This document shows positions 11,280 to 37,440 of a stretch of 37,440 nt of DNA, one piece after another. The first letter of the stretch is position 1. Each line of letters opens with the position of its first letter. This stretch comes from a virus. The DNA lies in IMG/VR virus record IMGVR_UViG_3300025106_000005, positions 1 through 37,440 of that record. The stretch is one strand, 5' to 3'. A model generated the notes under the pieces. That model worked only from the letters and a program-made list of their open reading frames with translations. It had not been told where the DNA came from and ran no database searches. Position numbers and translations under genes: made by a program.

Positions 11280-11288
11280 AAAATTAAT

Positions 11289-11822: not shown

Positions 11823-11824
11823 AG

Positions 11825-12394: not shown

Positions 12395-12396
12395 GT

Positions 12397-16924: not shown

Positions 16925-16971
16925 GTAGATAATTGATTTATGGGGAGATTAAACCAGGTTTAAATGAGTTT

Positions 16972-17409
16972 TTAAAACTTATGCCTAAACGGTTTTCTAC
17001 TTGAAATAAAAATGTCGGTTTTTTGCTCTGAATTTTCCAAATAAGGAAGGGTTGTTTGAATGTTTCCCCTACCTGCATCTTTTAACCAACTAATAGCATC
17101 GTCATAATCGGTTTGGCGGTGGTTAGGTAAATCTTTCGTGCCAACTTGGTGGTATAAATAATATAATGCCACTACCACTACTATTTTAATAATATGCTTA
17201 TTACGTGTATCGCTGCCTGTAGTGTGTGGTGTAAAAATTAAGGAGCAGTTAAATCGGCCGCCCAAATACTCGGTAATGGTGGCAATAGCCGTATCAGTAG
17301 CTCTGACAAATGCCTCAGAAGGCTGTGAGTTTGTGGACTGGCCGATTAACTGCTGTAAAATTTCAGGCTTTATAAAGCCGTTAAAATCTTCGTGTTTTAT
17401 AAATGACAT
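16972..17409 (-). CDS. Mu gp36-like (DUF1320) head-tail protein
   Basis: 145 residues. Landmarks of the DUF1320/gp36 family are the N-terminal IKPEILQQLIG, AFVRATDTAIATITEYLGGRF (an A-x-x-x-A-x-x-x-I-x-x-Y-L-x-x-R pattern), a helix IKIVVVVALYYLYHQV and the C-terminal DYDDAISWLKDAGRGNI. This family acts as a head-tail adaptor. It lies between the large terminase and the portal fusion, as expected, in a tight leftward operon. Confidence 0.75.
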   Translation of the reverse strand: MSFIKHEDFNGFIKPEILQQLIGQSTNSQPSEAFVRATDTAIATITEYLGGRFNCSLIFTPHTTGSDTRNKHIIKIVVVVALYYLYHQVGTKDLPNHRQTDYDDAISWLKDAGRGNIQTTLPYLENSEQKTDIFISSRKPFRHKF

Positions 17410-17411
17410 AA

Positions 17412-18977
17412 TTAATATCGTTTGTTTTTGAAAGTTCTTTTTACAAATTGGGGTTCGAATTTGTCTATGAAAGTCATAGCATCTAATTCTTTAATTCCGA
17501 CACCTATGGCATCAGGGCCATCGTCAGCAGATTGACTACCTTTTTGAAAAGCTAAGAACTGATCTATAGCTTCTTTTTGGTCGTAAGTATCTTTTTCATC
17601 AATATTCCAGTACACCCACATGCGTTCAAATACACCACAAATACTTTCTATATGGTCGAATTTATTACCATACTTCTTTTTATTAGCTGTAACTGGTATG
17701 TAATAGCCCCTTTCTTCACCTTCTCTGTCAAAGTCGCTTACAAATTCATCCTGAGCAAATAAGCCATCTATTTTGTAGGTAATATTATGTTTGCCTAGCT
17801 TTTTGTAGTGATGAAGGTCGTAGAGCCATTTTGCTACATTTTGGCGACTTGTTTGCCTTAAAAAGCTATGAATAATATGAAATTCTTTTCCTTTTTTCCC
17901 AATCAAAAACATGCCTTTAAAGTCAGCTTTATCTTTATAGCTTAAGTCACCAATAAAAATTAATGCATCATAATTATCATAAGACAACATCAATTTATGT
18001 TGCATTTGTTCAGCTTTAAATATTTTACCATCCTGAACGTGCATGTGCATGTATTCACGCATGAAGCCACGAGAATTACGGACATACTTTTTTCTCCAAT
18101 ACTCACTGGTGGTTTTCTCAGGCCAGTTTGGTACAAAATCTATAAGGTCTTTAACAGCTGGAACAGAAAGTATATGATAATTTGTTTTGTATCCTTCTTT
18201 TTTATCTAAGTCAATGTTTTTTTGAAAGAATGCTTTTAATCTGTTTGTAATACTATTTTTATGAAAGTTGTTGTTGCTGTAAACCAATCTTTCTATAGCG
18301 TCCTCATCACTATCGGTATCAAAACAACCTTCTACCTCTTCAGTAATGTATTCAACAGCCTCCTGCATTATTCTATCGTTATTTACATGGGCTTTTGTAT
18401 CAACATCATCAATTACAATATAGGTAGGACGTTGATGTCCTTCCCTCAAACCTCTAGGGCTGCTACCAAAGCCTAAACTAATAAACCTTGCACCGTCTAC
18501 AGTTAAAAAATTGCCTTCACTCCAGTCGCCTTTTTTAACCTTTTCACCATAATCGTTTTTTAAACGTTGGTTGTATTGCAGTTCTGCTTGTATATCGCTT
18601 AAAAGCTTCTTTGCTTTTATATCAGTTTCACCGATTAAAAGCGTAAAAGGATTTTCTTTTTTTACCAAGTAGAGATACAGTGGCAACCCCATATCGATGT
18701 GTACGCTTTTTCCACCGCTTCTAAAAATTTCAGCTAATAGTCTTATTTTTTTAAATTCAATAATCAATTTGGCAAGCATTACATGAAACCATGCACTTTT
18801 CTTTTTTGCATAGTGTGGAAAATTGTATTCAAACCAAGCTATATAGGTTTTTTCTTGCTTAGCAATGCGTTTCAATTTTTCTTCTGGGCGTTCACGCACA
18901 TCCACCACTGTACTTTTAACAATGTGCTGGCAATGTGTTTCGTATTCAGCAAATAGTTTTAAATATTTATTATCCAT
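17412..18977 (-). CDS. Terminase large subunit (Mu gp28-like)
   Basis: 521 residues. The ATPase domain has a degenerate Walker A-like FRSGGKSV (85-92), Walker B YIVIDDVD (186-193) and a coupling-like segment near 230. The RNase H-like nuclease domain has D344 in FIGDLSY, D404 in YKIDGLF and D489 in DGPDAIG, giving the acidic triad. It powers DNA packaging and cuts headfuls; in Mu-type phages this takes flanking host DNA. The start overlaps the small subunit gene by eight bases. Confidence 0.85.
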   Translation of the reverse strand: MDNKYLKLFAEYETHCQHIVKSTVVDVRERPEEKLKRIAKQEKTYIAWFEYNFPHYAKKKSAWFHVMLAKLIIEFKKIRLLAEIFRSGGKSVHIDMGLPLYLYLVKKENPFTLLIGETDIKAKKLLSDIQAELQYNQRLKNDYGEKVKKGDWSEGNFLTVDGARFISLGFGSSPRGLREGHQRPTYIVIDDVDTKAHVNNDRIMQEAVEYITEEVEGCFDTDSDEDAIERLVYSNNNFHKNSITNRLKAFFQKNIDLDKKEGYKTNYHILSVPAVKDLIDFVPNWPEKTTSEYWRKKYVRNSRGFMREYMHMHVQDGKIFKAEQMQHKLMLSYDNYDALIFIGDLSYKDKADFKGMFLIGKKGKEFHIIHSFLRQTSRQNVAKWLYDLHHYKKLGKHNITYKIDGLFAQDEFVSDFDREGEERGYYIPVTANKKKYGNKFDHIESICGVFERMWVYWNIDEKDTYDQKEAIDQFLAFQKGSQSADDGPDAIGVGIKELDAMTFIDKFEPQFVKRTFKNKRY

Positions 18978-19395
18978 TGGTGTTGATTATGTGAGCCAAG
19001 AACTTTTTATTCCATTCTAATAATTCCAATGCAAGCTTTGGGGCTTCTTTTGCCATAAATTCATCCTTTAATTTTAAAACCGCTGCTACTATACCAGGAT
19101 TAATTCTGTCACTAATTCCTTCATAGACTTTAAAAAGCTTACTTAACGCATCTGCATCAATAGTTGGTTTTTCTCCATTTGCTATTAAAATCATTTGCTT
19201 AGCAACTAGGCGTTTCATTTTTATAGGGTTGTTAATTGTGTCTTCTCTACGCTTATCCCATTCATATTTATCACGCCATTTGCTAATAGTATTTTCACTA
19301 ACATTTAGTGCTTCGGCTATTTGTTTTGCATCCCAAAACATCTCTACAAACATGTTCAGGGCAGCCTCTCTTTCTTTTACTTTTTCTTTCGGCAT
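18970..19395 (-). CDS. Terminase small subunit with N-terminal HTH
   Basis: 141 residues from ATG 19395; a GTG two codons upstream is possible but would fall inside the promoter-like element. Residues 15-45 carry the HTH FWDAKQIAEALNVSENTISKWRDKYEWDKRR (core: IAEALNVSENTISKW), typical of terminase small subunits, followed by an oligomerising helical region. It recognises the packaging start. It is the first gene of the leftward late operon, and its ATG is only five bases from the GCATTTTTG element, implying a very short leader. Confidence 0.75.
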   Translation of the reverse strand: MPKEKVKEREAALNMFVEMFWDAKQIAEALNVSENTISKWRDKYEWDKRREDTINNPIKMKRLVAKQMILIANGEKPTIDADALSKLFKVYEGISDRINPGIVAAVLKLKDEFMAKEAPKLALELLEWNKKFLAHIINTNG

Positions 19396-19400
19396 ACCCA

Positions 19401-19510
19401 CAAAAATGCTAAGCAGCGAAGCTGCTTAGTACAGGAGGTGCAACGGTTGCATGATATTCTGCAACCGTTGCAGGACGGCTTGTTTGACTGTTTTCGGTAT
19501 CGCATTTTTG
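19401..19510. promoter_or_regulatory. Mirror-symmetric divergent late promoter region
   Basis: Two inverted copies of GCATTTTTG lie at 19401-19409 (reading left) and 19502-19510 (reading right). Exactly midway (centre 19455.5) is a perfect 13-bp inverted repeat, 19439-19451 with 19460-19472, loop 8. Each arm is itself palindromic (TGCAAC-N-GTTGCA), so there are two sites 21 bp apart. GCATTTTTG resembles a Bacteroidota -7 box with the TA changed, and no -33 TTTG is in place. This suggests activator-dependent promoters for both late operons. Activator identity unknown. Confidence 0.65.
19409..19429. repeat. Hairpin CTAAGCAGC-GAA-GCTGCTTAG
   Basis: Perfect 9-bp inverted repeat with a 3-base loop, immediately next to the leftward GCATTTTTG element. 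It lies in the non-coding late control region, upstream of the small terminase gene. It could be a regulator site, or, if transcribed from outside, a structured RNA. Confidence 0.6.
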
Positions 19511-19528
19511 GTTTCACAAATGCGATAC
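19497..19528. repeat. 11-bp inverted repeat covering the protease start codon
   Basis: GTATCGCATTT (19497-19507) and AAATGCGATAC (19518-19528) are perfect complements with a 10-base loop. The right arm contains the ATG at 19520. Arm centres are 21 bp apart, the same spacing as the two palindromes to the left. As DNA it could bind a dimer over the promoter. As RNA from an upstream start it would hide the start codon. Confidence 0.6.
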
Positions 19529-20701
19529 ACCGAATTAAATAGCACTACAGCAGAATTAAGATTCTACGGCTACATTGGCCAGTGGTGGAATTCTTCAACT
19601 GATTTTGATAACACTATCGAAGACATCGAAAGAAAGTATCAAAATTTACACATTCGACTACACTGCTATGGTGGTGAGGTGTTTGAAGGAAATGTTATTT
19701 ACAATAGACTAGTTCGTACTAAATTAAATGTTACTGTTTATGTAGATGGTGTTGCAGCAAGCATGGGTGGCGTAGTTATTCTACCTGCCAAAAAAATAGT
19801 AATGGCTCCGAATTCTTTCGTAATGATCCATGTGCCAAAAGCTTACACAAGTGGTAGTGCCAATGACCATTTTGCACAAGGTAAAGTGCTTAGAAATATG
19901 GAAGATGCCTTTACAAAGGCATTTAGCAAAAGAACTGGTAAGTCTACTAAAGAAATAGCTAAGTATTTAGATGGTTCAGACCATTGGTTAAGTGCTGATG
20001 AGTGCTTGCAAATGGGTTTGTGCGATGCCATAGAAGGTGAAAGTGCTACTACTGAAGCTGTTGCAAAGCCTGATAGTGGAACGGCAGTTGAAAGCATTTT
20101 TAACCGCTATTCTGCTATTGCGGTAGCAAGTGAGCCAACAAGTGTTACAAACTCAAATTCAAATACCATGACTCTTATTGAAGCGTTAATTATGGCCTTT
20201 GGCCTACAAGGCTTAACCAAAGACAGTAGTACAACGGCTGTGGTTGAAGCTATGAAAAAAGTTGTTACCGATAAGGATGCCAAAATAGCAAGCCTTACAA
20301 CGGAGGTTCAAAATGTAAAAGATGCAACAATTGTTGCTGCTATTGCTTCGAAAGAAACGGAGTTAGGCAAGAAGTTTACAGAATTGGAACTGGAGAATTT
20401 TAAAGCAATTGGCCGATTAAATCCAACCGCTTTAACAACTGTATTAGCAGCTATTCAACCAGTGCCACAACTGCAAAACATTGTGCAACCTGAAGCTAAA
20501 GCAACTGCTTCCGCTACTACACCAACAGGAACTAGTGTTGTTGCTACTGACCGTAAAACATGGAATTGGGCTACATGGCAAGAAAAAGACCCTGATGGAT
20601 TAGAGGCGTTAAGTAAGAGTGCCAAAGCCGAAGATAAGGCCGTGTTTAAAGCTTTATACATTGGTGAGTTTGGTGAAGCTGCTGCTGCCGATTTACAATA
20701 A
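19520..20701 (+). CDS. ClpP-like prohead protease with C-terminal scaffold region
   Basis: 393 residues from ATG 19520. Residues 10-175 are an S14/ClpP-type serine protease: HCYGGEVFEGN, then S81 in DGVAASMGG and H104 in SFVMIHVPKA. Residues 200-393 (variable linker, a coiled coil near VVEAMKKVVTDKDAKIASL, then a C-terminal domain with WNWATWQEKDPDGLEAL) look like a scaffold, as in Mu gpI/gpZ. It cleaves scaffold and capsid during head maturation. An in-frame ATG at 19451 follows AGGAGGTG, but it would add an un-protease-like N-terminus and sits in the operator, so I reject it. Confidence 0.8.
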   Translation: MRYTELNSTTAELRFYGYIGQWWNSSTDFDNTIEDIERKYQNLHIRLHCYGGEVFEGNVIYNRLVRTKLNVTVYVDGVAASMGGVVILPAKKIVMAPNSFVMIHVPKAYTSGSANDHFAQGKVLRNMEDAFTKAFSKRTGKSTKEIAKYLDGSDHWLSADECLQMGLCDAIEGESATTEAVAKPDSGTAVESIFNRYSAIAVASEPTSVTNSNSNTMTLIEALIMAFGLQGLTKDSSTTAVVEAMKKVVTDKDAKIASLTTEVQNVKDATIVAAIASKETELGKKFTELELENFKAIGRLNPTALTTVLAAIQPVPQLQNIVQPEAKATASATTPTGTSVVATDRKTWNWATWQEKDPDGLEALSKSAKAEDKAVFKALYIGEFGEAAAADLQ

Positions 20702-20775
20702 ATTTTTTTGTTCAACAATCCTGCTCCAACACAAGGCTACGTAACAAATCAATTTTAAAATTTAATTCTATACAA

Positions 20776-21855
20776 ATGAAAAAAGTTAAGTACAGTGCTG
20801 CAAACGTAATGACTGCATTGTTTTTTATTGTTTTTACTACCGTAACCTTACATGTGTTGTTTGCTGTTCCCATGCTGCTTAGTGCAATTGTTTTGTCGCT
20901 TTTAAGTTTTCTACCTGTGGTGCAAATGCCGAAAAACAGTTTTTACGAAACATTTTATCGTCAAGCATGGGAAAGTGAAGCAATCAAGCGTTTTGATAAT
21001 GCCAATAATAATAGCTGGAGACAAGGATTGAAAAACTTAGGTAAGTATGCTACTATGTTGGCTGATGGAGAAACATTGGTGATTAACCTTGCCTATTTTG
21101 GTGTAAAGCCTGATGTATTGGTAGATAATACCGCTTACCCGATAGCTATACAGCAACTAGATGCAGAGAATATAGCTATTTCAGTAAGGAAATACCAAAC
21201 CAAAGCAACACCAATTACAGATGATGAATTGTTTGGTTTGGCATACGATAAAATTCGTACTGTTCAAGAAAGTCATATCCTTTCTATTGAAGAAGAGAAG
21301 AATGCAAGAGCCTTACACTCTGTTTGTCCTGTTGCAAATACGGCCGCAACGCCAATATTATTAACTACAGGAGACGTTGTAGCAGGTCGTAGAATGTTGC
21401 GAATCCAAGATTTATTAGATTTTAGAGATAAGTTAAACCGTTTAAAGCAGCCTAAGCTTGGTCGTAGAATGGTATTGTGTAATGACCACATCAACGACTT
21501 ATTAAAGCAAGATGAAAAGTTTGCCAATCAATGGTACAACAAAGAAACTGGTGCTTTAAACAAGATGTTCAATTTTGAATTCTTTGAGTTTGAAGATGCT
21601 CCATATATCAACACAACTACTAGAGCAAAAACAAGCTATGGTGCTGTTCCACAAGCTGGTAGAGATTTTGAAAGTAGTGTGTATTTGCATTCAGCTAGAG
21701 TGGTAACCGTTACTGGACAAACAAAGGTGTATGCTAGCAAAAGCAGCGACGACCCTCAAAACCAAAGAAGCTTGATCAACTACCGTCATTACGATTTAGT
21801 AGTGCCATATAAGCAAGAGGCAATTGGGGCTATCGCATCTGCACCAGGAGCATAG
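20776..21855 (+). CDS. Major capsid protein with hydrophobic N-terminus
   Basis: 359 residues. It lies directly after the protease/scaffold gene, the standard place for the HK97-fold capsid protein. The body has WRQGLKNLGKYATMLADGETLVINLAYFGVKPDVL, DDELFGLAYDKIRTVQESH, GRRMVLCNDHINDLL and a C-terminal RHYDLVVPYKQEAIGAI pattern, all capsid-like. Residues 9-50 form two adjacent hydrophobic stretches (LFFIVFTTVTLHVLFAVPML and LSAIVLSLLSFLPVV). A start at M52 (20929) would remove them, but the codon use looks coding. The hydrophobic arm may be cleaved during maturation (inference). Confidence 0.75.
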   Translation: MKKVKYSAANVMTALFFIVFTTVTLHVLFAVPMLLSAIVLSLLSFLPVVQMPKNSFYETFYRQAWESEAIKRFDNANNNSWRQGLKNLGKYATMLADGETLVINLAYFGVKPDVLVDNTAYPIAIQQLDAENIAISVRKYQTKATPITDDELFGLAYDKIRTVQESHILSIEEEKNARALHSVCPVANTAATPILLTTGDVVAGRRMLRIQDLLDFRDKLNRLKQPKLGRRMVLCNDHINDLLKQDEKFANQWYNKETGALNKMFNFEFFEFEDAPYINTTTRAKTSYGAVPQAGRDFESSVYLHSARVVTVTGQTKVYASKSSDDPQNQRSLINYRHYDLVVPYKQEAIGAIASAPGA

Positions 21856-21917
21856 TAATGATGCTTTTTGAGTGCCTTTATTAAGAAAAAAATATTATTC
21901 ATTTTAATAAAATTGAT

Positions 21918-22271
21918 ATGGCTATCGAAAAAAAAGAATTAGCTGCTTTGTTAAAAGAGCTAAAAGAAAAATACGCTGAAGAAGCCAAAGAAACCGCCAA
22001 AAGCTTAGGTATTACAAAAATTTGGGTAAACAAAAAAGGTGAATTTTTTACCAGTGAAATGAATGCCCAATTAAGCGGTAATAAAGATGAGGTTGTGGGG
22101 TTTGATTTTTCAGAAGAAGAGGAAAAGCAAGCACCTGAGCCAAAAATGGTAAAAACGTCTGTAAAGGTTACACAGGAAATTTTAGACAAGTATCCTGAGC
22201 AGGTAAAACAAGGAATGAAAATCGGTGATACCATCGAAATCGAAGTTCCTGAAGATGTTACAGCAAAATAA
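21918..22271 (+). CDS. Acidic coiled-coil protein after the capsid gene
   Basis: 117 residues. A charged N-terminal helix (KKELAALLKELKEKYAEEAKE), then a segment KIWVNKKGEFFTSEMNAQL typical of a small beta domain, an acidic stretch (SEEEEKQ) and a short C-terminal beta domain. I do not recognise the family. The position suggests a head decoration or head-completion protein, or a small head-tail factor, but this is inference. Confidence 0.6.
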   Translation: MAIEKKELAALLKELKEKYAEEAKETAKSLGITKIWVNKKGEFFTSEMNAQLSGNKDEVVGFDFSEEEEKQAPEPKMVKTSVKVTQEILDKYPEQVKQGMKIGDTIEIEVPEDVTAK

Positions 22272-22301
22272 AACGCAATCATCATAGCAAGCAAGGCAAA
22301 A

Positions 22302-22332
22302 GGGCTACTGAATAAAGTAGGTAGCTCTTTTT
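22302..22332 (+). terminator. Terminator between head and tail genes
   Basis: GGGCTAC (22302-22308) pairs with GTAGCTC (22321-22327, one G-U) followed by five T. An alternative stem, CTACT/AGTAG, lies inside the same loop. This is likely a partial terminator reducing read-through from the capsid genes into the sheath gene. Confidence 0.55.
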
Positions 22333-22367
22333 AAACCACATTTAAAAGTCATTTAAATTATTATAAA

Positions 22368-23663
22368 ATGAGTAGCCTAAAAGGAGCAGGCATACAAAAA
22401 GGAGCAGTTGGGGCTAATTCAAGTAGCCCCACAACTTCTCCGAGTGTATTGTTAAGTAATGCTGCTGTTGCAGATACTACTGTTGTTGTAAATGTACCTG
22501 TTGAGGTTAAGAGTTTAAAGCAAGCTGAAGCACTTGGAATTACGGCTGCTTATGATACAGCCAAAGATGTAGTGTTGCACAGGCATATTGTTGATTTTTA
22601 CGACATGGCTGGTGAGGGTACAAGCTTAACCATTATCCTAGTAGATGCACCTACACCTGCTGATGCTCTTGAAGATGCGGCTGTTGCTTTTGCAAAAAAG
22701 GCAATCGTTTTTGGTGCTGGTAAAATCAGAAATGTTGCATTAAGTTGGAATATACCAATTGCAACTGCCGAAACTACAACTGACGGCATTAGCACACCTA
22801 TTAGAGCTGCTTTACCTAAAGCACAGGTATTAGCTGATTGGGCTTTTGCTACAGATAGGCCAGTGCATATACTTATAGAAGGTAGAAGATTGGCAGATGC
22901 CGTTAACACAGCCATAGATTTACGCAATATTGTAGTTGGTGCAGCACGTTTAGATGCTCCAAATGTAAGTGTGGTAATTGGTCAGGATTGGACTTATGCA
23001 GAAGCACGTAAAACGGCTACTGCTAATACAAAAACGCAATATTATGCTGCCGTTGGTAAAGCTTTAGGAACGCTTGCAGCTGCTGAGATGAATCAAAGTA
23101 TTGCTGAAGTAGCAAGTTTTAATTTAAGTAATGCAGCTAAAGGATTCTTTGTTGTAGGCGGTTTAAGCAATCATAAAAAAATTAGCGAAGTAGAAGCTGA
23201 TTTACAAACGCTTAACGATAAAGGTTACATTTTCCCAATTAGTTATAATACTGAAGCTGTAAGTGGTTTACGTTGGAATGGCGACCATACTTGTGTTGAA
23301 ATTAGAGTAGATGCAGATGGTAACATTAATGATCACATGATATTCTACGCTCGAACGCTCAACGAAGTAAGTAGAAGTTTAAGAAACGTTTTGTTACAAA
23401 GTGTAAAACGTAGAATGCCAGCAAACACCTCAACTGGAAAGCTTACTAGTGGTTCAGTAAAATTGCTTGAAGCAGATGGCAATAAAGTATTTGAGTTGTA
23501 CCAACAAGCTGGATTTATTAGTGGAGGTAGAACCATTGTTGACGCTAACAGCGACCTCGTAACACCTCCTAAAACCTTATTTGCAGATTTTGAAGTTGTA
23601 CCCACATTGATATTAGACAATATCGCTGGAACGGTACGCCTAAAAAAATCTTTCACCGTTTAA
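22368..23663 (+). CDS. Contractile tail sheath protein (DUF2586-like)
   Basis: 431 residues. The order and content fit DUF2586 sheath proteins of Bacteroidota Mu-like phages: a small-residue-rich N-terminus, LKQAEALGITAAYD, HRHIVDFYDMAGEGTSLTIILV, a central DRPVHILIEGRRL and VSVVIGQDW, and a conserved C-terminal region WNGDHTCVEIRVDADGNI...NEVSRSLRNVLLQSVKRRM. The sheath contracts to drive the tube through the envelope. The tube gene follows 14 bases later. Confidence 0.8.
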   Translation: MSSLKGAGIQKGAVGANSSSPTTSPSVLLSNAAVADTTVVVNVPVEVKSLKQAEALGITAAYDTAKDVVLHRHIVDFYDMAGEGTSLTIILVDAPTPADALEDAAVAFAKKAIVFGAGKIRNVALSWNIPIATAETTTDGISTPIRAALPKAQVLADWAFATDRPVHILIEGRRLADAVNTAIDLRNIVVGAARLDAPNVSVVIGQDWTYAEARKTATANTKTQYYAAVGKALGTLAAAEMNQSIAEVASFNLSNAAKGFFVVGGLSNHKKISEVEADLQTLNDKGYIFPISYNTEAVSGLRWNGDHTCVEIRVDADGNINDHMIFYARTLNEVSRSLRNVLLQSVKRRMPANTSTGKLTSGSVKLLEADGNKVFELYQQAGFISGGRTIVDANSDLVTPPKTLFADFEVVPTLILDNIAGTVRLKKSFTV

Positions 23664-23677
23664 TTTTTTAACCCACT

Positions 23678-24106
23678 ATGGCAAATACAGTAGTAGTAGT
23701 TAACCGCCAATATCATCCCGGCGATACAGTTCTTACCTTATTAGGAATTCAAGAAGATGAAGTGATGGAGATTAACTACAATTATAAAAGAGCTCATACA
23801 CACAATAAGAGTTTAAAAGGTCTCTCTAGCTGGAGTATGGGTGGCATTTCTGAAATGACTTGCAGCCTAAAATTGTACATGACTGCTGTGCAACGCATTA
23901 AAGCCATTGCCAAAGCAAATGGTGTAAGCGATCTAACGCTTTTGCAACCCTTTAATGCAGCCGTTACCTATGCTAATGACGAGTTAGCTGAAGTAAACGA
24001 CATTATAACCATGAAGTTTCAAAGCGATGGCCGTGAGGTTACTGGAGAAGAAGGATTAGCCATGAGTTATGAAATGTTCGTAACAGGTATGCAACTAGAC
24101 GTTTAA
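23678..24106 (+). CDS. Tail tube protein
   Basis: 142 residues, all-beta pattern with NYKRAHTHNKSLKGLSSWSMGGISEMTCSLKLYM near the middle and a C-terminal TMKFQSDGREVTGEEGLAMSYEMFVTG. The length, the position after the sheath and before the chaperone, and the repeated beta-strand plus helix arrangement are those of a myophage tube protein (Mu gpM analogue). Confidence 0.75.
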   Translation: MANTVVVVNRQYHPGDTVLTLLGIQEDEVMEINYNYKRAHTHNKSLKGLSSWSMGGISEMTCSLKLYMTAVQRIKAIAKANGVSDLTLLQPFNAAVTYANDELAEVNDIITMKFQSDGREVTGEEGLAMSYEMFVTGMQLDV

Positions 24107-24141
24107 AATTATTTAAAAACCACATAAAACCTGCTCTAATT

Positions 24142-24680
24142 ATGGAACAAGCATTACCAGTTTACGTAACACCAGAAATGTTAGAAAAAGCAAAAACAGA
24201 AAGGACAAATGTAAAGTTAGCAGAATTGTTCGATGATAATGGAAACTACGTGGAATCCATTATCGTTCAACGACCAACCGCTTTTGTCTTTACTCAATTT
24301 GAAAAAATTATTGATAAAGAACCTTACAAAGCAAAAAAAATGTTGATTAAAGATTGTGTTGTTGGAGAAGAACGAGCTAAACAAATAAGCAGCCTTAGCA
24401 ATGACAATCCATTATTCAACGCCGCTTTTGCAGCTTGTTCTGAAATATTGCCAATCGGTAAAGCTGTAGTAAAAAACTTATAAACCAGCGATTTGGCGAA
24501 GCGTTGAAAGAAGAAGAGGTTACTGCTTACTACGATCACTGGTTGAGCATTATCCTCTTTTTTTTTCAAATACGCCATCCAGAAACTGTTACTGAAGAAG
24601 AGTGGTTTGATAAAGTTGAACGCTGGCAACATTTAGAAAAGTATGGTTTTTTACCAGTAAAAATGAAAAACAATGGATAA
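24142..24680 (+). CDS. Tail assembly chaperone, short form plus -1 frameshift extension
   Basis: The 0-frame product (24142-24483) has 113 residues. Just before its stop is the slippery heptamer A-AAA-AAC (24471-24477) in the correct phase. A shift to the -1 frame continues through an uninterrupted frame to the TAA at 24678-24680, adding about 67 residues (LINQRFGEALKEEEVTAYYD and on, with WLSIILFFFQ and ERWQHLEKYG). A short and a long form made by -1 slippage is the hallmark of lambda G/GT-type chaperones and is found in Mu-like phages (gp41/42). The extension overlaps the next gene by eight bases. Usually the tape measure follows; here it does not. Confidence 0.8.
24471..24477 (+). other. 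Programmed -1 frameshift site
   Basis: A-AAA-AAC with 0-frame codons AAA and AAC, two codons before the 0-frame TAA. Both tRNAs can re-pair one base back. The downstream -1 frame is open for 201 bases and codes for a plausible protein. I saw no strong stem-loop in the next 30 bases. Confidence 0.8.
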
Positions 24681-25416
24681 TCTACAGAAACAATTACAAG
24701 AGGCACGTAGTAAAGCGGTTCAGCCTTTTGATTCTCTAGATAAAGCCATTAATCCTGAACGTTTGGCAAGAAGCACACAAACGCTTTTGGAAGGAACAAA
24801 AAATACTGGTAAAGAATTACAGCAAAGAGGCAAACGAGTAATTGATTTAGGAAAACGTTTTGAAAAAGCATTTGGTTTTGTTAGTGGCAACGTACCGAAA
24901 GATTTACAAAACAAAGGCTTTAAAACGGCTATTCAAAATGCTGGTGTTTACGTAAAAAGCAATACCACTTTTGAAACCATGTTGTTAAGAAATGGAAGTA
25001 CTGAGTTGGTATTTGATTATTACAATTTGAATGACAGTTTAGGTGGTTTGTTTGCTCCACCACCGATTGTAAGCTTTAGCAAAAGCAAACGGCAGGAAAG
25101 AACTGTGTTAGATGGCCCTGAAGGAGAAGTGGTAGAAAAATATGGTCACGAGCCTTGGAGCATTACCATTAGAGGTTTATTGATAGATACAGTAAACCAC
25201 AACTACCCAAGCCAAAAAGTGAGAACACTTATCAGCGTATTTAATACAGATGATATGTGGGAAGTAGAGAGCGAAATTTTTCAAGACCACGGCATTAGAA
25301 GCATATACTTTGAACAGATAGACAGTGAAGGTGTGGAGAGCTTTGATGACACTTGGAGTTATACTTTAAAAGCATTTAGCATAAAACCTGTAGAATTTTT
25401 CTTAAGAAAAAAATAA
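24673..25416 (+). CDS. DUF6046-like baseplate-associated protein
   Basis: 247 residues. A helical N-terminal 90 residues is followed by a beta-rich domain with the order seen in DUF6046 of Bacteroidota prophages: RQERTVLDGPEGEVVEKYG, SITIRGLLIDT, YPSQKVRTLISVF, WEVESEIFQDHGIRSIYFE and a final YTLKAFSIKPVEFFL. It occupies the place of Mu gp43-like / hub-loading proteins between chaperone and hub. Exact function unknown; probably baseplate hub assembly. Confidence 0.65.
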   Translation: MDNLQKQLQEARSKAVQPFDSLDKAINPERLARSTQTLLEGTKNTGKELQQRGKRVIDLGKRFEKAFGFVSGNVPKDLQNKGFKTAIQNAGVYVKSNTTFETMLLRNGSTELVFDYYNLNDSLGGLFAPPPIVSFSKSKRQERTVLDGPEGEVVEKYGHEPWSITIRGLLIDTVNHNYPSQKVRTLISVFNTDDMWEVESEIFQDHGIRSIYFEQIDSEGVESFDDTWSYTLKAFSIKPVEFFLRKK

Positions 25417-25441
25417 TCACATGAAATTCTTATTCGCAATT

Positions 25442-26401
25442 ATGGCCTACTTAAATATGCAAGCTGAAGTAATTATTGGTGATATTGTTTTACCACATAT
25501 CAACAGCTTCACCATTAACGAAAGTATTGAAGATATAAGCGATTACGCAACCATAACCATAGCAAAAAACTACAAGCAACTTAAAGGCAATCCCATTTTA
25601 AAATATATACAAGCTGGTTACCCAGTTGAAATTAAATGTGGCTACAATGGTGACATTGCTACTGAATTTACTGGATTTGTAAAGCCTGGCATTAGTGCTG
25701 AGTGGCCTGTAAAAATTGAATGTGATGAGTTGTTTTTGTTGAGACAAGGTAACGTAATTGTAAGCGATAGAAATATTACACTGATTGATTTGCTTACCAA
25801 AATTGCACCACAATACGAAGTAGAAGCCCCAAAAACCAACTTAGGCAAAACGGTGATTAGTAACGTATCGCCTTATCGTGTATTGCAAGATTTAAAGAAA
25901 AAGTATGGCTTTTACAGCCGTATAAATGGCAATAAATTATCGGTAGGTTTTGCCTATGACTTCAATCCATCATTTACCCAAACACATCAATACATAATTG
26001 GCAGAAACGTAAAGGATAGTAAAGGATTAAAGTTTAATACGGAAGTAGACTTTAATGTACGTGTTGAGGCTCATGTATTGGTAAAAGGAAAAAAAGTAAT
26101 TGTTTCTGAAGGCAGTAGCGATAAAGATGCAAAAGTGCAAAAGATTGATTTAAACGAGTACATGACAGAAGAGGAAGCACAAAAAACAGCTAAAGCAAGG
26201 TTGCATAAAATACTCTATGCAGGTTTTACAGGAAACATTGTTGGCTTTGGTTTTCCGCGTACACATGCTGGTGATGCTCTTGAAATTCTCAATCCAAAAT
26301 TACCTGAGCAAGATGGCACTTACATGATTGAAAAGGTAGAAGTAGAATATGCACCAAGCCATATTAATAGAGATAACACATTGAGTTTTAAAATCGTTTA
26401 A
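25442..26401 (+). CDS. Tail hub protein (gpD / Mu gp44-like)
   Basis: 319 residues from ATG 25442, chosen because the miniature paralogue at 10908-11279 begins with the same MAYLNM; an ATG at 25421 would add seven residues. The domain series is that of gpD/gp27-like hubs: an N-terminal beta-barrel (ITINESIEDISDYATITI-like strands), GYPVEIKCGYNG, FTGFVKPG, a central LIDLLTKIAPQYEV, YRVLQDLKKKYGFYSRING and a C-terminal FTGNIVGFGFPRTHAGDALEI. It forms the central baseplate hub holding the spike. Confidence 0.8.
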   Translation: MAYLNMQAEVIIGDIVLPHINSFTINESIEDISDYATITIAKNYKQLKGNPILKYIQAGYPVEIKCGYNGDIATEFTGFVKPGISAEWPVKIECDELFLLRQGNVIVSDRNITLIDLLTKIAPQYEVEAPKTNLGKTVISNVSPYRVLQDLKKKYGFYSRINGNKLSVGFAYDFNPSFTQTHQYIIGRNVKDSKGLKFNTEVDFNVRVEAHVLVKGKKVIVSEGSSDKDAKVQKIDLNEYMTEEEAQKTAKARLHKILYAGFTGNIVGFGFPRTHAGDALEILNPKLPEQDGTYMIEKVEVEYAPSHINRDNTLSFKIV

Positions 26402-26402
26402 A

Positions 26403-26885
26403 GTGGCTTTAACACCTGAAGAAGCATTTGCAGAAGCCTTAAAAAAAGGACATGAAAAGTTCGCTACCAAAACCATTGTTTTTGGTGTAGCAAAAAATGT
26501 AAGAGAAACTGTTTGTGATGTTGAAAGAGATGGCGAGGCAAGCTTGATAGATGTTAGACTAATGGCTTGGGATGATGCGGAAGGATATTGTGTTATAACA
26601 CCCAAAGAGAACAGTATTGTAATAGCTGGAATTGTAAATAATAGCGAAGAGCAAGCTTGCATTATTCAAGCTAGTGAGATTGAAAAGATACATGTAAAAA
26701 TTGCCACAGTAGAAGTAAAAATTAGTGCTGAAGGAGTGGTGGTAAAAAAAGAACAGGACAATTTAAAAGATGTGCTTACACTAATGATAGATGCGGTAAA
26801 ACAGATAACTGTTTTGTATGGCAACAACCCCAACTATTTAAAGTTGCAGCAGGCACAAACTAAAATAAACAACCTTTTGAAATAA
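26403..26885 (+). CDS. Baseplate spike protein (gpV / gp45-like)
   Basis: 160 residues starting at a GTG one base after the hub stop. An OB-fold-like segment (CDVERDGEASLIDVRLMAWD, then VITPKENSIVIAGIV) is followed by strands IHVKIATVEVKISAEGVVVKK that resemble the start of a spike beta-helix, and a C-terminal helical tail. The P-x-x-x-S-x-V-x-x-G pattern and the position after the hub support a membrane-piercing spike. It is short for the family and lacks a visible metal-binding HxH tip. Confidence 0.6.
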   Translation: MALTPEEAFAEALKKGHEKFATKTIVFGVAKNVRETVCDVERDGEASLIDVRLMAWDDAEGYCVITPKENSIVIAGIVNNSEEQACIIQASEIEKIHVKIATVEVKISAEGVVVKKEQDNLKDVLTLMIDAVKQITVLYGNNPNYLKLQQAQTKINNLLK

Positions 26886-27121
26886 TGCCACTGAATAAAG
26901 ATGTTTTAGGCCTTTTGTTATACAACGCTAGAGCTGCATTTGATAATAAAACAATGGATGAATTAATTGCTGAACATGGCACATTGGAAGGGGTAAGATT
27001 GGCAATTTGTAAAGCAGATGCTGAAGCAATAATAAACCATTTTAAAGCCGATGCCACTGTGCCAGCTTTAGGTTTAAACGCACCAAATGGAGCGGTAGTA
27101 GGAATGGCAAAAATTGTTTAA
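26885..27121 (+). CDS. Small baseplate-region protein
   Basis: 78 residues, coupled to the previous gene through TAATG. Alpha-helical, ending PALGLNAPNGAVVGMAKIV. The proline- and glycine-rich end may be a spike tip or a structural cap, but I do not recognise a family. Conserved-looking and placed between spike and gp25-like genes. Confidence 0.5.
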   Translation: MPLNKDVLGLLLYNARAAFDNKTMDELIAEHGTLEGVRLAICKADAEAIINHFKADATVPALGLNAPNGAVVGMAKIV

Positions 27122-27123
27122 TC

Positions 27124-27414
27124 ATGAGAAAGGATATTTTATTGGATGACAATTTTCAGGTAGTGATTGATAATCAAGATATGGTAATTACCAATAGTGA
27201 TGAACAACATGTACAGCTATTGGCAATTACAGAAAAAGGAGCGATAAAATACAACCCTACGGCAGGATTTGGATTGTACGGCCGTTTGAAACAAAGAGTA
27301 GCCAACGTGAGATCCTTTGAAAGAGAATTAAAAATTGAACTAGAGCTGGATGGTTACGGTAGTGCTAGCATTGATACAAGCGAAGGTGTTAACAACGTAA
27401 AAATAGAATTATGA
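27124..27414 (+). CDS. gp25/Mu gp46-like baseplate wedge protein
   Basis: 96 residues. MRKDILLDDNFQVVIDNQDMVITNSDEQHVQLLAITEKGAIKYNPTAGFGL (landmarks: DDNF..VI.NGD-like start, then YNPTAGFGL) is the gpW/gp25 signature, with a C-terminal IELELDGYGSASI strand. gp25-like proteins join wedge and sheath start. The stop overlaps the next ATG by four bases. Confidence 0.75.
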   Translation: MRKDILLDDNFQVVIDNQDMVITNSDEQHVQLLAITEKGAIKYNPTAGFGLYGRLKQRVANVRSFERELKIELELDGYGSASIDTSEGVNNVKIEL

Positions 27415-27914
27415 GAGATGCAAGAATAAGTTTACCAAGAGTGCAGCAACTGCACCCTACTTTGATTAACCAAGTAGTAGAAATAATCAATAAGGTTGAA
27501 ATAAATTTTCCTAAAACTATACAAGTTAGGGTTACTGCAACTTTTAGAACTTTTGCTGAACAGGATGCTCTTTTTAGAAAACGCCCAAAAGTAAGCAATA
27601 GCAGAGGCGGCCAGAGCTATCATAACTATCGTTTAGCTTTTGATTTTGTTCTTATGTACGATTTGAATGGCGATGGCAATTATGAAACAGTTAGCTGGGA
27701 TACCTTGAAAGATTTTGACAGAGATGGACAAGCTGATTGGATGGAAGTAGTAAATGCTTTTAAAGCTGCTGGTTGGGAATGGGGTGGCGACTTTAGAAGC
27801 TTACCTGATAGCCCACACTTACAATTTACCTATAACAAACATTGGAGAGAATTATTAGCCATGCACAATGCAAAAAAATTCATCCCAAAAACTCAATTTT
27901 TAAAACTACCATAA
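27411..27914 (+). CDS. Endolysin, M15-type peptidoglycan peptidase
   Basis: 167 residues. The zinc site pattern of the M15 (VanY / L-Ala-D-Glu peptidase) family is present: VTATFRTFAEQDALF, then SNSRGGQSYHNYRLAFDF with the first His and Asp, and DSPHLQF near residue 142 with the last His. It cuts peptide cross-bridges of the cell wall. No signal peptide is visible, so it needs a holin, and the next gene supplies one. Between them residues 75-105 carry a calcium-loop-like DLNGDGNYET and DFDRDGQADW. Confidence 0.85.
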   Translation: MRDARISLPRVQQLHPTLINQVVEIINKVEINFPKTIQVRVTATFRTFAEQDALFRKRPKVSNSRGGQSYHNYRLAFDFVLMYDLNGDGNYETVSWDTLKDFDRDGQADWMEVVNAFKAAGWEWGGDFRSLPDSPHLQFTYNKHWRELLAMHNAKKFIPKTQFLKLP

Positions 27915-27916
27915 AC

Positions 27917-28903
27917 ATGAAAACAGCAAGCTTCTTAAGCATAAGCACCATTTTAGGATTTTTACAAATTCAATTTTTACCCAACGCTAATTTATTAGCT
28001 TGGGCTTTTGCCATTATTGGTTTAGACTTTGTAACTGGATTGATTAAGTCTGCCGTAAATAAGGTAGCTATTACTAGTACAGGCTTTAGAAACAGTATAA
28101 AAAAACTCATCCAATACATCGGAATTATCCTATTAGGTGCATTGTTAGGCAATGCTTTGCCTAAGGATAACGACATGGTTAGATGGATAAATGATGTTGT
28201 ACTAATCTTCATCATTTATACTGAAGCTTACAGTGTGGTTGAGAACTTGAGAGATGTTAATCCAAATAGTACGATTTCAACTAAAATATTCAGTGGTTTA
28301 TTAACCATTTTAACATTAGGTATTGATAAGCTTTCAAGCATAAAAAAGCCTAGCGATACTGTAAAAATGATTGCTGTTGCTACAACAATTGGATTGGTTG
28401 CTTCTTGTAAAGTAATAAAGCCTGAAACTACAAACTCAACCGATAAAAGCGATAGCACTATTATTAAAAAAGAGTACGTTCCTGTTTTAGTACCAGGAGC
28501 AAATGTAGCTGGTTCTATAAACTATGATAGCTTATACAAAATATGGCGTAATACTTTGCCAACAAACGCCTCAAATACCAATACCGATAGTTTGTTTAAA
28601 GCCTTTTTAAAAACGTTTAAAACTGGCGAAAAAACAACCATTGTAGACCCTAACAGTAAAGTGCAATTAGAGTATTGGATGGATGCTTACGGCAAACTAA
28701 ACATTAGTTGCAGCAGCAAAGACCAAACGCTTCAATTGTTAACCACAGAAATAACAAGACTTACCAAAATAGCTACACAAGCTAAAAAGGTAGAAGTGGT
28801 GGTAAAAGCTCCACAATGGGCATGGATAAGCTTAGCCTTTAATCTATTGTTGTTAGGTGCATTATTGCTAATACTCTTTTTGTTATTTAAAACACGTTCT
28901 TAA
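27917..28903 (+). CDS. Holin fused to a unimolecular-spanin-like lipoprotein
   Basis: 328 residues from ATG 27917. Residues 1-140 are a phage_holin_4-type holin: spans near 8-38 and 62-82, GLDFVTGLIKSAVNK and a third span INDVVLIFIIYTEAYSVVENL. Residues 151-164 (MIAVATTIGLVASC) form a lipoprotein signal with lipobox VASC, C164. A periplasmic region follows and then a C-terminal membrane span (about 303-324, ISLAFNLLLLGALLLILFLL). Lipid anchor plus C-terminal span is the u-spanin design (T1 gp11), which joins inner and outer membranes. M151 (28367) could start a separate spanin of 178 residues. Confidence 0.8.
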   Translation: MKTASFLSISTILGFLQIQFLPNANLLAWAFAIIGLDFVTGLIKSAVNKVAITSTGFRNSIKKLIQYIGIILLGALLGNALPKDNDMVRWINDVVLIFIIYTEAYSVVENLRDVNPNSTISTKIFSGLLTILTLGIDKLSSIKKPSDTVKMIAVATTIGLVASCKVIKPETTNSTDKSDSTIIKKEYVPVLVPGANVAGSINYDSLYKIWRNTLPTNASNTNTDSLFKAFLKTFKTGEKTTIVDPNSKVQLEYWMDAYGKLNISCSSKDQTLQLLTTEITRLTKIATQAKKVEVVVKAPQWAWISLAFNLLLLGALLLILFLLFKTRS

Positions 28904-28904
28904 A

Positions 28905-29204
28905 ATGGCAATTGTACAAGAAGGACAAACCTTGTTAGATGTTGCTATTCAACATTGTGGCAATGCTGAAGCTTTATTCGACATAGTAAAGCTGAATGTG
29001 TTTGAAGACATTACACAAGATGTTGCTGTTGGTACAGAATTACTACTTCCTGAAGTAACCACTGATAACAAAGATGTTGTAGCATTTTTTAGCAATAAAC
29101 AAGTTATTCCTGCTAGTAATGCTACACAAGCAGAACAAGAGCAGCAACAACAAGAACAAGGAATTAATTATTGGGCAATTGGTGAAGACTTTGTGATTAG
29201 TTAA
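28905..29204 (+). CDS. LysM-like small tail protein
   Basis: 99 residues. The first 55 have a LysM/tail-X-like layout: EGQTLLDVAIQHCGNAEALFDIVKLN, then AVGTELLLPEV. A glutamine-rich linker (QAEQEQQQQEQ) and INYWAIGEDFVIS close it. Tail X/LysM-like proteins bind near the hub. It starts one base after the holin-spanin stop. Confidence 0.55.
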   Translation: MAIVQEGQTLLDVAIQHCGNAEALFDIVKLNVFEDITQDVAVGTELLLPEVTTDNKDVVAFFSNKQVIPASNATQAEQEQQQQEQGINYWAIGEDFVIS

Positions 29205-29214
29205 AATTTAAACA

Positions 29215-30096
29215 ATGGCAGCAAGAACTACACAAGAAATATTTGAAATAATGAGGCAAAAGGCCATTGCAGATGCTACTGCTATTGGTGATGTTGATGC
29301 TGTAGAAATGTATGAAGAAAACGATAGTAGTTTCGCTTTTTGGCGTAGTTTCTTTTTTACCGTTGCCTTTATTACACACACTTGTGAGGTAATTTTTGAA
29401 ACGTTTGTACAAACGGTATTGGATATTATAGATCGTTTAAAACCTCACACTCGCAATTGGTATAGAAACAAGATTTTAGACTTCTGCTATGGTATTCCTT
29501 TAGTTACAGATAGCGACAAGTTTAACACTACAGGCTTTACACCTCAGCAGATAGAATTTAGCAAAATAGTAAAGTATTGTGCTATTAACGAAACAACCGT
29601 AAATCAATTACGAGTGCTACAAGTAAAAGTAGCTGGTAGAAATGGGCAAGGTATTCCAATAGCATTAACCGCACCACAAGAGTTGGCTTTAATAACCTAC
29701 ATCGAGGAAATAAAAGATGCAGGCGTAGTTGTTTTGGTTTATAACCAAGCTGCCGATGTAATTAAAGCAAGTTTAAACGTGTATTACAACCCTATGCTTT
29801 TAGATTCTTTGGGCAATCGATTAGATGGTGCTGGTGGTAAACCAATTGAAGAAGCTGCATTGGCTTATCCTTTCAATTTAGGCTTTAATGGTGAGTTTAT
29901 TGCCAGTCGTTTTATTGATGCTGTACAAAGTGCTTATGGCGTAAGTAGAAACAGAGCCGACTTGGTTTTGTTGCAAAAGAAAACAGGTAACAATCAATAT
30001 ATCAATGTAAATAGTTCGTTTGTTCCTGATGCTGGTTATGCGGTTTTTGAAAACAATGGTTTAATAATAAATTATATAGCCGATGTGGTTGGTTGA
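29215..30096 (+). CDS. Baseplate J-like protein (Mu gp47 analogue)
   Basis: 293 residues. The N-terminal helix and a hydrophobic region (WRSFFFTVAFITHTCEVIFETF, residues 42-63) are followed by PHTRNWYRNKILDF, a central beta domain with VLVYNQAADVIKASLNVYYNPMLLD and the family-like end FIASRFIDAVQSAYGVSRNRADLVLLQKK. J/gp47 proteins form the outer wedge linking baseplate and fibres. The sequence is divergent from Proteobacterial J, so the assignment rests on pattern and order. Confidence 0.6.
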   Translation: MAARTTQEIFEIMRQKAIADATAIGDVDAVEMYEENDSSFAFWRSFFFTVAFITHTCEVIFETFVQTVLDIIDRLKPHTRNWYRNKILDFCYGIPLVTDSDKFNTTGFTPQQIEFSKIVKYCAINETTVNQLRVLQVKVAGRNGQGIPIALTAPQELALITYIEEIKDAGVVVLVYNQAADVIKASLNVYYNPMLLDSLGNRLDGAGGKPIEEAALAYPFNLGFNGEFIASRFIDAVQSAYGVSRNRADLVLLQKKTGNNQYINVNSSFVPDAGYAVFENNGLIINYIADVVG

Positions 30097-30553
30097 TTTA
30101 AAAAAGCTAGCACAATGGTATATGCAAAAACCATTGAACAAAGGTCGCAACATGCAAATGGTGTGGGCTGCTACTTTTCCTTTAAGGCAGCTTTATAACA
30201 GGTTTACAAACTTTAGAAAAGAAACCCTTTACTACTTGAGCCACAACAGTCAAGTGTGTTATTTAAGAAAGGTTTGTAATGATAAATGCGACACACAGCT
30301 TCGCCGAATATATATAACAGACTTTAACGGCATACAAGGGGTTTTTGCATGGCCTGATGAAGATGTAAGAGATATTGATGTTACAAACGATATATACCTG
30401 TGGCCTGATAACATGTATGCAGATAGTGGAATAGACTTTACAGTGCATGTGCCAGCTTCAGTAGTTGATACAGATACAAAATTGAATTTTCTAAAAAGCC
30501 AAATCAACACCTACAAGTTACCCGGCAAAAACTACAACATAGAAACATTTTAA
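30083..30553 (+). CDS. Tail protein, gp48/gpI-like position
   Basis: 156 residues; the ATG overlaps the J-like gene by 14 bases. It has FPLRQLYNRFTNFRKETLYYLSHNSQVCYLRKVCNDKCD near the start, with three cysteines (a possible metal or disulphide cluster), then beta strands. It lies where Mu gp48 and P2 gpI lie. I cannot identify the fold directly; inference from order. Confidence 0.5.
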   Translation: MWLVDLKKLAQWYMQKPLNKGRNMQMVWAATFPLRQLYNRFTNFRKETLYYLSHNSQVCYLRKVCNDKCDTQLRRIYITDFNGIQGVFAWPDEDVRDIDVTNDIYLWPDNMYADSGIDFTVHVPASVVDTDTKLNFLKSQINTYKLPGKNYNIETF

Positions 30554-30555
30554 TC

Positions 30556-31374
30556 ATGAAAAGAATTGATTATAGCATTTTACAAGGTTTTCCGCTAAGC
30601 TCTACTATGCTGCGTTATCAGCAAGAGCAGCTAGAGCAGATACAACAACTGAGCAACTTAGCTGGTATCAGTTACATATTAGATGGTTGTACTGAAGCTG
30701 CTGGTGTAGTAAGTGATGGATGGGTAGTTATAAAAGGTGAAGTTTTGCCATTTACAGGTGGGCCAGTAAATAATGGCATTAAAGTAATAATTACAGAACA
30801 AGTAATTAATCGGAATTTTTTTGGAGGCGGTAATAATGCATACTACAGGGTTAGAACTGCCACTTTTGGTGTAAGTGGTAATGTAAATACAGAATGGTTG
30901 TGGGCAGATTTTAAACGTAATAATCCCAATAATGGGTTATTAGCTAGGATGGATAAATTGGAAAAAATAATTGCTCCTTTATTGCCTTATGATAACAACG
31001 GTACACAAGAATGGGGAAGTTATTTATACTGGATGAAGCCAGCTAATTTAATTCCTGATGGTTGGGTTGAAGTTGATGAAGCAGAATGGCGTGGCCGCTT
31101 TCCATTAATAGCAGACCGTACCAATATTAATTACAATACCATTGGTGCAACAGGTGGTGCAGAAACGCATACACTTACTGAAGATGAAATGCCTGCACAT
31201 TCGCATCCAATTAATAATGCTGTAAGAAATGCAGGTTCAGGAGGACAAAATTATACAGGTGGGCCTTACAATTTTTCAATTCCTATAAATGCCACAGGTT
31301 CAGCTGGAGGAAGCCAGCCACACAACAACATGCCTCCATTTAGAATAGTTGTATTTATAAAATTCGTAGGGTAA
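30556..31374 (+). CDS. Tail fibre protein with phage tail-collar domain
   Basis: 272 residues. The C-terminal 110 form a tail-collar domain: WYLYW-like start, DGWVEVDEAEWRGRFPL, GGAETHTLTEDEMPAHSH and the end QPHNNMPPFRIVVFIKF. The N-terminal half carries EQLEQIQQLSNLAG, a short coiled coil, and beta repeats (MKRIDYSILQGFPLSSTML start). It is probably the fibre part closest to the baseplate. Confidence 0.75.
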   Translation: MKRIDYSILQGFPLSSTMLRYQQEQLEQIQQLSNLAGISYILDGCTEAAGVVSDGWVVIKGEVLPFTGGPVNNGIKVIITEQVINRNFFGGGNNAYYRVRTATFGVSGNVNTEWLWADFKRNNPNNGLLARMDKLEKIIAPLLPYDNNGTQEWGSYLYWMKPANLIPDGWVEVDEAEWRGRFPLIADRTNINYNTIGATGGAETHTLTEDEMPAHSHPINNAVRNAGSGGQNYTGGPYNFSIPINATGSAGGSQPHNNMPPFRIVVFIKFVG

Positions 31375-31377
31375 TAA

Positions 31378-31818
31378 ATGAGCCAGTTTAAAAACATAGT
31401 AAAACAATGGTTTCAAAAAAACGATAAGCCAACTGAAGAGCAGTTTGCCCAAAGCTTCGATTATATCTTTTTTAAAGATGAAGTTATTCCTGTGTCGGCA
31501 ATTGAAGGATTAATTGATGTCTTAAATGGAAAAGCCAACAGTAATGCTGTGGCTGCATTAATGCCGATTATTGCAAGCAATGTAGCAACGGTACAAATAC
31601 CTGCATACACATGGGTAACCGCTATTTTAATCTTCAGCAACCAAGATGCAGTGGTTACGGTTGGAACAACTGAAGGTGGAGTTGAGTACAGCGATGGAAT
31701 TAACATTACCAATGGTAAAGGATTAATTGAATACAGCTATGTAACTGGTGCAGCTGCACAAACATTTTACTTCAGTAATGTACCACAAAACGCAATCATC
31801 AAAATATATAAACAGTAA
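31378..31818 (+). CDS. Small fibre-associated protein
   Basis: 146 residues. The N-terminus (SQFKNIVKQWFQKNDKPTEEQFAQSFDYIFFKDEVIPV) resembles the fibre-start pattern of Bacteroidota phages, repeated in many tail fibre genes as a KDxxPTxxQF motif. The C-terminal part is beta-rich (VTVGTTEGGVEYSDGINITNGKGLIEY). It is likely a fibre connector or tip. Confidence 0.55.
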   Translation: MSQFKNIVKQWFQKNDKPTEEQFAQSFDYIFFKDEVIPVSAIEGLIDVLNGKANSNAVAALMPIIASNVATVQIPAYTWVTAILIFSNQDAVVTVGTTEGGVEYSDGINITNGKGLIEYSYVTGAAAQTFYFSNVPQNAIIKIYKQ

Positions 31819-36545: not shown

Positions 36546-37440
36546 TTATTGTTTTGTAAACGTTTTGCTGCCGATTATTTTTCCTTGTGTATCTACAATT
36601 TGAAGCACATAATTACCTGCTTGAATTGCATTGTTAAGTTGAACATTTTTACTTGTTGATCCGCTTTGAATAAACATTTTTTCTTGTTGTAATAAGCGAC
36701 CATTTATGTCAATAATTTTTGCAAAATAATTACCCAATTCTATATTATTGAACTGAACTTGTAAAGTATTGGTAACCGTAGGATTTGGATATACTCGAAC
36801 AGTTGCTTCTATTATTAAGTTTTCTGTATTTGCTTTTACGGTGCTAGATAATTGTGTAAAACCATCTTTATCTACAGACTGAATGCGATAATAATTACTT
36901 CCTTGAAGTGGAGCAAAATCGGTAAATGCATATTTGCCACCAATACCGTTTGCTTTTACAGTGCCAACTTTATAAAACTGTGTGCCATCAGCACTACGTT
37001 GTACTACAAAATTATTGGTATTCACTTCGTTACTTGTTTGCCAATTTACAACTACAGTACTGTTTTTTGTTGTTGCAGCAATGCTATTATAGGTAAGAGG
37101 TAAAACACCTGTTAGTAGTAAGTTAGATGCATATATTTCTCCGTTTGTTGTTGTTCTACTATCTGGCCAAGCTATTAAAACTCCTCTCGAGCCATTTGTT
37201 AAACTTACAGGAGAAGTTTGGTTGCCTGTTGCATTAGTTACTAAAACTCCATTAGTAGCCCACATAATGGTTTTATCTGCTTTTATTCTTTGTGCGTAAA
37301 TATCTGTACCTGTCGTACCACTATTTCTTGTATCATCCCAAATAATAATTACGCCATCTGCACTGTCTGAAACAATATTTAAGTTACGTGACGATGCCGT
37401 TGGTGAACTAGTTGAAGGTTGATTGCCAGTATTGGTGCAA
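36546..37440 (-). CDS. T9SS-sorted secreted host protein (C-terminal part)
   Basis: Open to the window edge, so partial; at least 297 residues. Repeats of the form W.D.R.....IYAQ.....W..NG (ADGVIIIWDDTRNSGTTG, then RGVLIAWPDSRTTTNGE) look like beta-propeller blades. An Ig/fibronectin-like part follows (VVVNWQTSNEVNTNNFVVQRS). The C-terminus is a type IX secretion sorting domain: VYPNPTVTNTLQVQFNN, ...GNYVLQIVDTQGKIIGSKTFTK. This pathway is restricted to Bacteroidota and fixes the host phylum. It is the right host flank, convergent to the prophage. Confidence 0.85.
   Translation of the reverse strand, partial: CTNTGNQPSTSSPTASSRNLNIVSDSADGVIIIWDDTRNSGTTGTDIYAQRIKADKTIMWATNGVLVTNATGNQTSPVSLTNGSRGVLIAWPDSRTTTNGEIYASNLLLTGVLPLTYNSIAATTKNSTVVVNWQTSNEVNTNNFVVQRSADGTQFYKVGTVKANGIGGKYAFTDFAPLQGSNYYRIQSVDKDGFTQLSSTVKANTENLIIEATVRVYPNPTVTNTLQVQFNNIELGNYFAKIIDINGRLLQQEKMFIQSGSTSKNVQLNNAIQAGNYVLQIVDTQGKIIGSKTFTKQ

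Follow-up and report, generated by a model that had tools for sequence, protein, structure and literature searches.

In phage lysis the inner and the outer membrane are normally attacked by different proteins, each encoded by its own gene and each acting at its own time. The locus described here raises the question of how a holin and a spanin can be supplied by a single reading frame. The window, that is the whole stretch of DNA that was analysed, is a 37,440-base IMG/VR record of a Mu-like phage, the structural genes of which are similar to those of the Winoviridae of Flavobacterium and Winogradskyella. Its host belongs to the Bacteroidota, as far as Bacteroidota-type features tell. Positions 27917–28903 of the forward strand hold 328 uninterrupted codons, with an ATG start and a single stop at the end. 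A sequence-only reading had recognized in this frame the architecture of a holin followed by a unimolecular spanin (u-spanin), and this is borne out by the open frame itself, a match to PF05105, the hydropathy profile and a lipobox. The observation is real and more than chance, and the boundaries given to the two parts in that reading are correct to within a few residues. Each half is of a known kind; what is new is that the two share one frame and that the lipoprotein signal lies inside it. Neither a holin–spanin fusion nor an internal lipobox came up in a full-text search of a literature library.

The fused gene has full-length relatives. These were sought among 160 related loci fetched by capsid alignment, together with holin-profile searches of bacterial genomes; single-protein scans for the fused gene in viral and genome contigs found nothing. 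The protein encoded by the IMG/VR contig L101 is a full-length fusion that is 42% identical to the window protein over residues 13–326 (E 3e-80), with the same domain order and lipobox position, and a second assembly (L178) encodes a protein identical to that of L101. A bacterial genome contig (L207) encodes a fused protein of 327 residues that is 38% identical. All three are fused in the same frame with a linker of similar length. In a fourth locus, L214, a related holin is continued in the same frame by another spanin, one that has no similarity to the other fused spanins; a run of N in this scaffold falls within the holin part and leaves the holin–spanin junction untouched. As there are unfused relatives in which the two genes overlap by four bases, the single frame might have been produced by a sequencing or assembly frameshift that merged two separate genes. 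This is hardly credible here, since the occurrence of the same fusion in the independent records L101, L178 and L207 excludes a frameshift or a missing stop as its source. Comparison of the window with L101 gives a pN of 0.37 against a pS of 0.68 for the holin part and 0.77 for the spanin part; as dS is large or saturated, these values do no more than hint that both parts are under purifying selection. Three further candidates (L118, L164 and L037) were rejected as fusions, being upstream-extended starts of free u-spanins.

The holin part consists of residues 1–137 (27917–28327, + strand). Residues 25–114 match the PF05105 family (Phage_holin_4_1) with an E-value of 5.2e-11 and 43.1 bits (curated cut-off 22.2) and also match the phrog_199 holin (E 1.6e-8), while the match to NCBIfam NF035928 (holin_1) is under its cut-off. 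The PF05105 scores of the fused relatives L101 and L207 are 38.5 and 39.3 bits. Hydropathy and loop charges suggest four membrane spans, at about residues 5–21, 27–43, 64–80 and 91–107, with both ends of the holin part in the cytoplasm. An AlphaFold2 model of low confidence (mean pLDDT 57) contains helices at residues 24–47, 54–78 and 86–114 of this part. The best Foldseek matches are mostly viral holins, none below an E-value of 1e-3, and give support for the holin half only; fold claims for the spanin part were dropped as the model is too poor, and a sequence search of the PDB brought no useful match. The window protein resembles the TcdE/Cph1-type holins of PF05105 in its profile match above the cut-off, its predicted multiple spans and its endolysin neighbour. 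It differs from them in having 190 extra residues, which make up the internal lipoprotein signal, a periplasmic part and a further span.

The endolysin is an M15 protein of 167 residues (27411–27914, + strand; PF13539, E 7e-15; phrog_465 endolysin, E 3e-22) in which no signal sequence was seen. Its gene ends 3 bases before the fused gene, a lysis-cassette position. An M15 endolysin is similarly encoded 5' of the fused gene in L101 (17008–17526) and in G1371 (L224, reverse strand, 3059–3577), and it stands immediately 5' of the fusion in three records, namely the window, L101 and the L207 contig. The other neighbouring genes on the L207 contig belong to a different phage backbone from that of the window. 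The endolysin and the fusion thus behave as a module, as the two again adjoin in L101 and on the L207 contig, the latter with different neighbours. After the fused gene comes a small baseplate protein gene (28905–29204, + strand, 99 residues) that is assigned from a weak phrog_975 baseplate match and from synteny, and its equivalent follows the fused gene in L101 and the holin/spanin pair in L099.

The spanin half consists of a predicted periplasmic part of about 140 hydrophilic residues (165–302; 28409–28822, + strand) and a predicted C-terminal inner-membrane span at about residues 303–325 (28823–28891, + strand). The periplasmic part is 46–47% identical to that of L101, and the span is placed by a hydropathy peak of 2.87, which gives about residues 304–324, and by the alignment of three fused proteins. 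It is preceded by a conserved PxWxW motif. Residues 151–328 have no Pfam or PHROG lysis match and fall into no named spanin family. A free lipoprotein, L181, is weakly homologous to the spanin part (E 3.5e-5; pairwise 4e-6). Iterated profile searches at first appeared to link the C-terminal part to all of the approximately 60 free u-spanins; once the lipobox and span were left out only L181, and marginally L129, exceeded shuffled controls, and so such a family is not claimed. In architecture the spanin half agrees with the unimolecular spanins, of which gp11 of phage T1 is the prototype and 58 are listed in the 2018 SpaninDataBase, as it has a lipobox, a periplasmic part with some predicted strands and a C-terminal span. 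U-spanins are described as N-terminal lipoproteins, however (PMC6139136, the main spanin survey), whereas the signal in the window protein is internal, behind the holin, beginning at residue 151 of 328, and would be N-terminal only if an internal start were used. A second difference is Cys265, which lies within a GKLxxxC motif of the periplasmic part and is conserved in L101, L207 and L181; a periplasmic cysteine is absent from the 58 u-spanins of that survey, an absence that was observed there and is not part of the definition. Many free u-spanin-like proteins of Bacteroidota also have a periplasmic cysteine (for example L205:4390–4869, L007:2865–3368 and L181:741–1253), and a GxLxxxC-like motif is present in 7 of 68 such proteins compared with 1.3% of shuffles.

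The two halves are joined by a Lys-rich linker, KLSSIKKPSDTVK (residues 138–150; 28328–28366, + strand), which is followed by the putative lipoprotein signal and lipobox (residues 151–164; 28367–28408, + strand). This stretch, MIAVATTIGLVASC, is made up of the hydrophobic segment MIAVATTIGLVAS and then Cys164, the TGT codon of which is at 28406. As the sequence-only reading had noted, the segment ends in a lipobox, VASC, and this fits the consensus [LVI][ASTVI][GAS]C (PMC6139136). All four fused proteins have a lipobox at the corresponding position: the consensus is also followed by LSGC (L101) and VIAC (L214), and in IGSC (L207) the second residue is a G. The 13 residues before Cys164 have no identity (0/13) between the window and L101, compared with 35 of 87 identical residues in the other membrane spans (Fisher p 0.0036). 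Directly after this segment, six of the seven residues C164–E170 (CKVxKPE) are identical. A cysteine that is kept while the segment before it drifts points to a discarded signal peptide.

The linker, in which 3 of 13 residues are identical between the window and L101, would serve as the n-region of this signal. It provides the window protein with 4 Lys/Arg and a net charge of +3 in the n-region window, and the corresponding regions of the four fused proteins contain 2–4 Lys/Arg (net +3, 0, +1 and +2, the value of 0 being that of L101). For comparison, all 62 free u-spanins surveyed have at least one Lys/Arg in the signal, and 58 of the 62 signals are net positive. Loop charges point to a cytoplasmic location for the linker and the end of the holin part, which is the orientation that a signal needs. 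A spanin has to get to the outer membrane, which it could not do while still attached to the holin; the contrast of 0/13 with 6/7 identity, the cytoplasmic charges of the linker and the Lys/Arg of its n-region point to a cut at Cys164. The argument that lipidation of Cys164 would require the protein to be cut from the holin is thus supported.

A different use of the same residues is a fusion that stays uncut. Residues 151–163 would then cross the membrane once more, and the C-terminal region would be a periplasmic loop or a regulatory domain of the holin (acting in timing, for example, or as an antiholin) that is held in the inner membrane at both ends. By default a hydrophobic segment inside a multi-span protein stays uncut, and the hydropathy of the segment is sufficient for a span. 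An ordinary helix is disfavoured, however, by the complete divergence of the segment beside a conserved cysteine and its following residues, and by the constant place of the lipobox. Moreover, the neighbouring gene in unfused relatives encodes a lipoprotein, and a chain left uncut would have no way to the outer membrane, while no other lipoprotein spanin was recognized on reading the open reading frames of the window. An uncut fusion is accordingly regarded as improbable.

The signal begins with an in-frame ATG (28367–28369, + strand; Met151), from which the sequence-only reading had suggested that a free spanin might be made in addition to the fused form. The ATG is indeed in frame and exactly at the start of the signal, but a second product from it is not supported as proposed. 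Under such dual initiation translation from 27917 would give the fusion, essentially a holin with a passive tail, and translation from 28367 a free u-spanin of 178 residues that would take over the task at the outer membrane. There are parallels in the relatives. In L207 an ATG is found 22 codons before the Cys, and L101 has a GTG with a good start context (2.5), also 22 codons before the Cys; in unfused relatives the spanin starts at the corresponding point, through an ATGA overlap that couples it to the holin gene. Against this, the position of the start is unconserved: L101 has CTT where it aligns to Met151, its GTG being nine codons further 5', the ATG of L207 is not at the Met151 position, and L214 is without a credible start, as TTG/GTG codons inside the hydrophobic segment or at its edge are all that it has to offer. 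A signal beginning at Met151 would lack Lys/Arg, unlike those of all the free u-spanins surveyed, and in none of the four fused proteins would an internal start give a form with a positive net charge (0 or below in each). The upstream context of Met151 is ambiguous: 17% of in-frame decoy ATGs do as well, and among true starts the score would belong to the lowest 17%. Dual initiation is therefore a minority reading that we consider unlikely. An internal start is not needed to obtain a spanin from this gene and Met151 is probably not required, although a second product from the ATG at 28367 is possible.

The reading that we prefer, with a probability of about 0.58, is that the full-length product is a two-part lysis precursor that would be cut by the signal peptidase II of the host before Cys164 to give a holin and a u-spanin. 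The holin part would be embedded in the inner membrane and end on the cytoplasmic side. Hydrophobic residues 151–163, together with the Lys-rich linker before them, would then act as an internal lipoprotein signal and thread the remaining chain into the periplasm, where Cys164 would be lipidated by host Lgt and the chain cut before it by signal peptidase II (LspA). Cleavage would leave a normal holin that carries a short tail, and a normal u-spanin whose lipid holds it to the outer membrane and whose C-terminal span holds it to the inner one. Finally, triggering of the holin would release the M15 endolysin encoded just upstream, and the spanin would then disrupt the outer membrane. The literature searched offered no precedent for LspA acting on a signal that follows a multi-span protein. 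From the fusion it follows either that such a signal is open to signal peptidase II or that an uncut holin–spanin works.

Some viral polyproteins, for example those of flaviviruses, are known to contain internal signals at which the signal peptidase of the host cuts them. The precursor proposed here would be similar, in that it would be made as one chain and then divided by a membrane peptidase of the host, but it differs in the domain of life and in the peptidase, which here would be signal peptidase II acting together with lipid modification. The wider proposal of a lysis polyprotein, in which one chain with a fixed 1:1 ratio is cut by the host lipoprotein signal peptidase at an internal lipobox and which has arisen at least twice in Bacteroidota prophages, is put at even odds. 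Conservation of the fused gene across divergent phages means that both lysis proteins can be made in a fixed ratio.

The fusion would have formed from two neighbouring genes, and relatives in which these are separate provide the comparison that the sequence-only reading had called for. A homologous holin gene is followed by a gene for a u-spanin-like lipoprotein with a 4-base ATGA overlap in L099, L180, L203 and L205, with a 2-nt gap in L190 and with a 7-nt gap in L209. These adjacent pairs of Bacteroidota prophages thus have the same two components in the same order as the window; they differ in that each gene has its own start and stop, where the window has one frame. In the holin tree the window, L101 and L207 are grouped (support 84/89) and L214 stands apart. 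The tree needs two gains of the fusion, a single gain being obtained in 0/200 bootstrap trees, although the well-supported branches alone do not force two. Taken with the dissimilarity of the L214 spanin to the others, the tree makes it likely that the fusion arose twice.

Among the related loci, 65 free lipoprotein u-spanin-like genes were found in 64 loci, a count that includes two or three doubtful cases and some near-duplicates. Bacteroidetes phages have been reported to use u-spanins exclusively (PMC12596118). As the holin and u-spanin genes adjoin in several Bacteroidota prophages, their position aids in finding spanins in phages so far listed as spanin-less. In L100, L208 and L210 a holin is present with no recognizable spanin beside it. 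L002 (MW202828) was rejected as a holin/u-spanin pair; it has a related holin, but the next gene (4389–5012) lacks a C-terminal span. The product of this gene has an N-terminal span and a strand-like C-terminus, and is possibly another kind of outer-membrane lysis protein.

Several other features of the window were observed. The terminase, portal and tape-measure genes lie on the reverse strand (10908–19401), and the protease, capsid, sheath, baseplate and lysis genes on the forward strand (19451–31818). A single reverse-strand frame of 851 residues (14369–16924) combines a Mu portal (PF06074), a Mu F-like head protein (PF04233) and a C-terminal PBECR2 nuclease-type toxin domain (PF18810). A reverse-strand gene of 123 residues (10908–11279) resembles the baseplate hub gene at 25421–26401 in its first ten and last 119 residues (40% identity); the middle of the hub gene is missing from it, and the two are on opposite strands. 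Finally, positions 36546–37265 of the reverse strand contain the end of a gene with a type IX secretion sorting domain (PF18962). This is apparently host DNA, which places the right end of the prophage before it.
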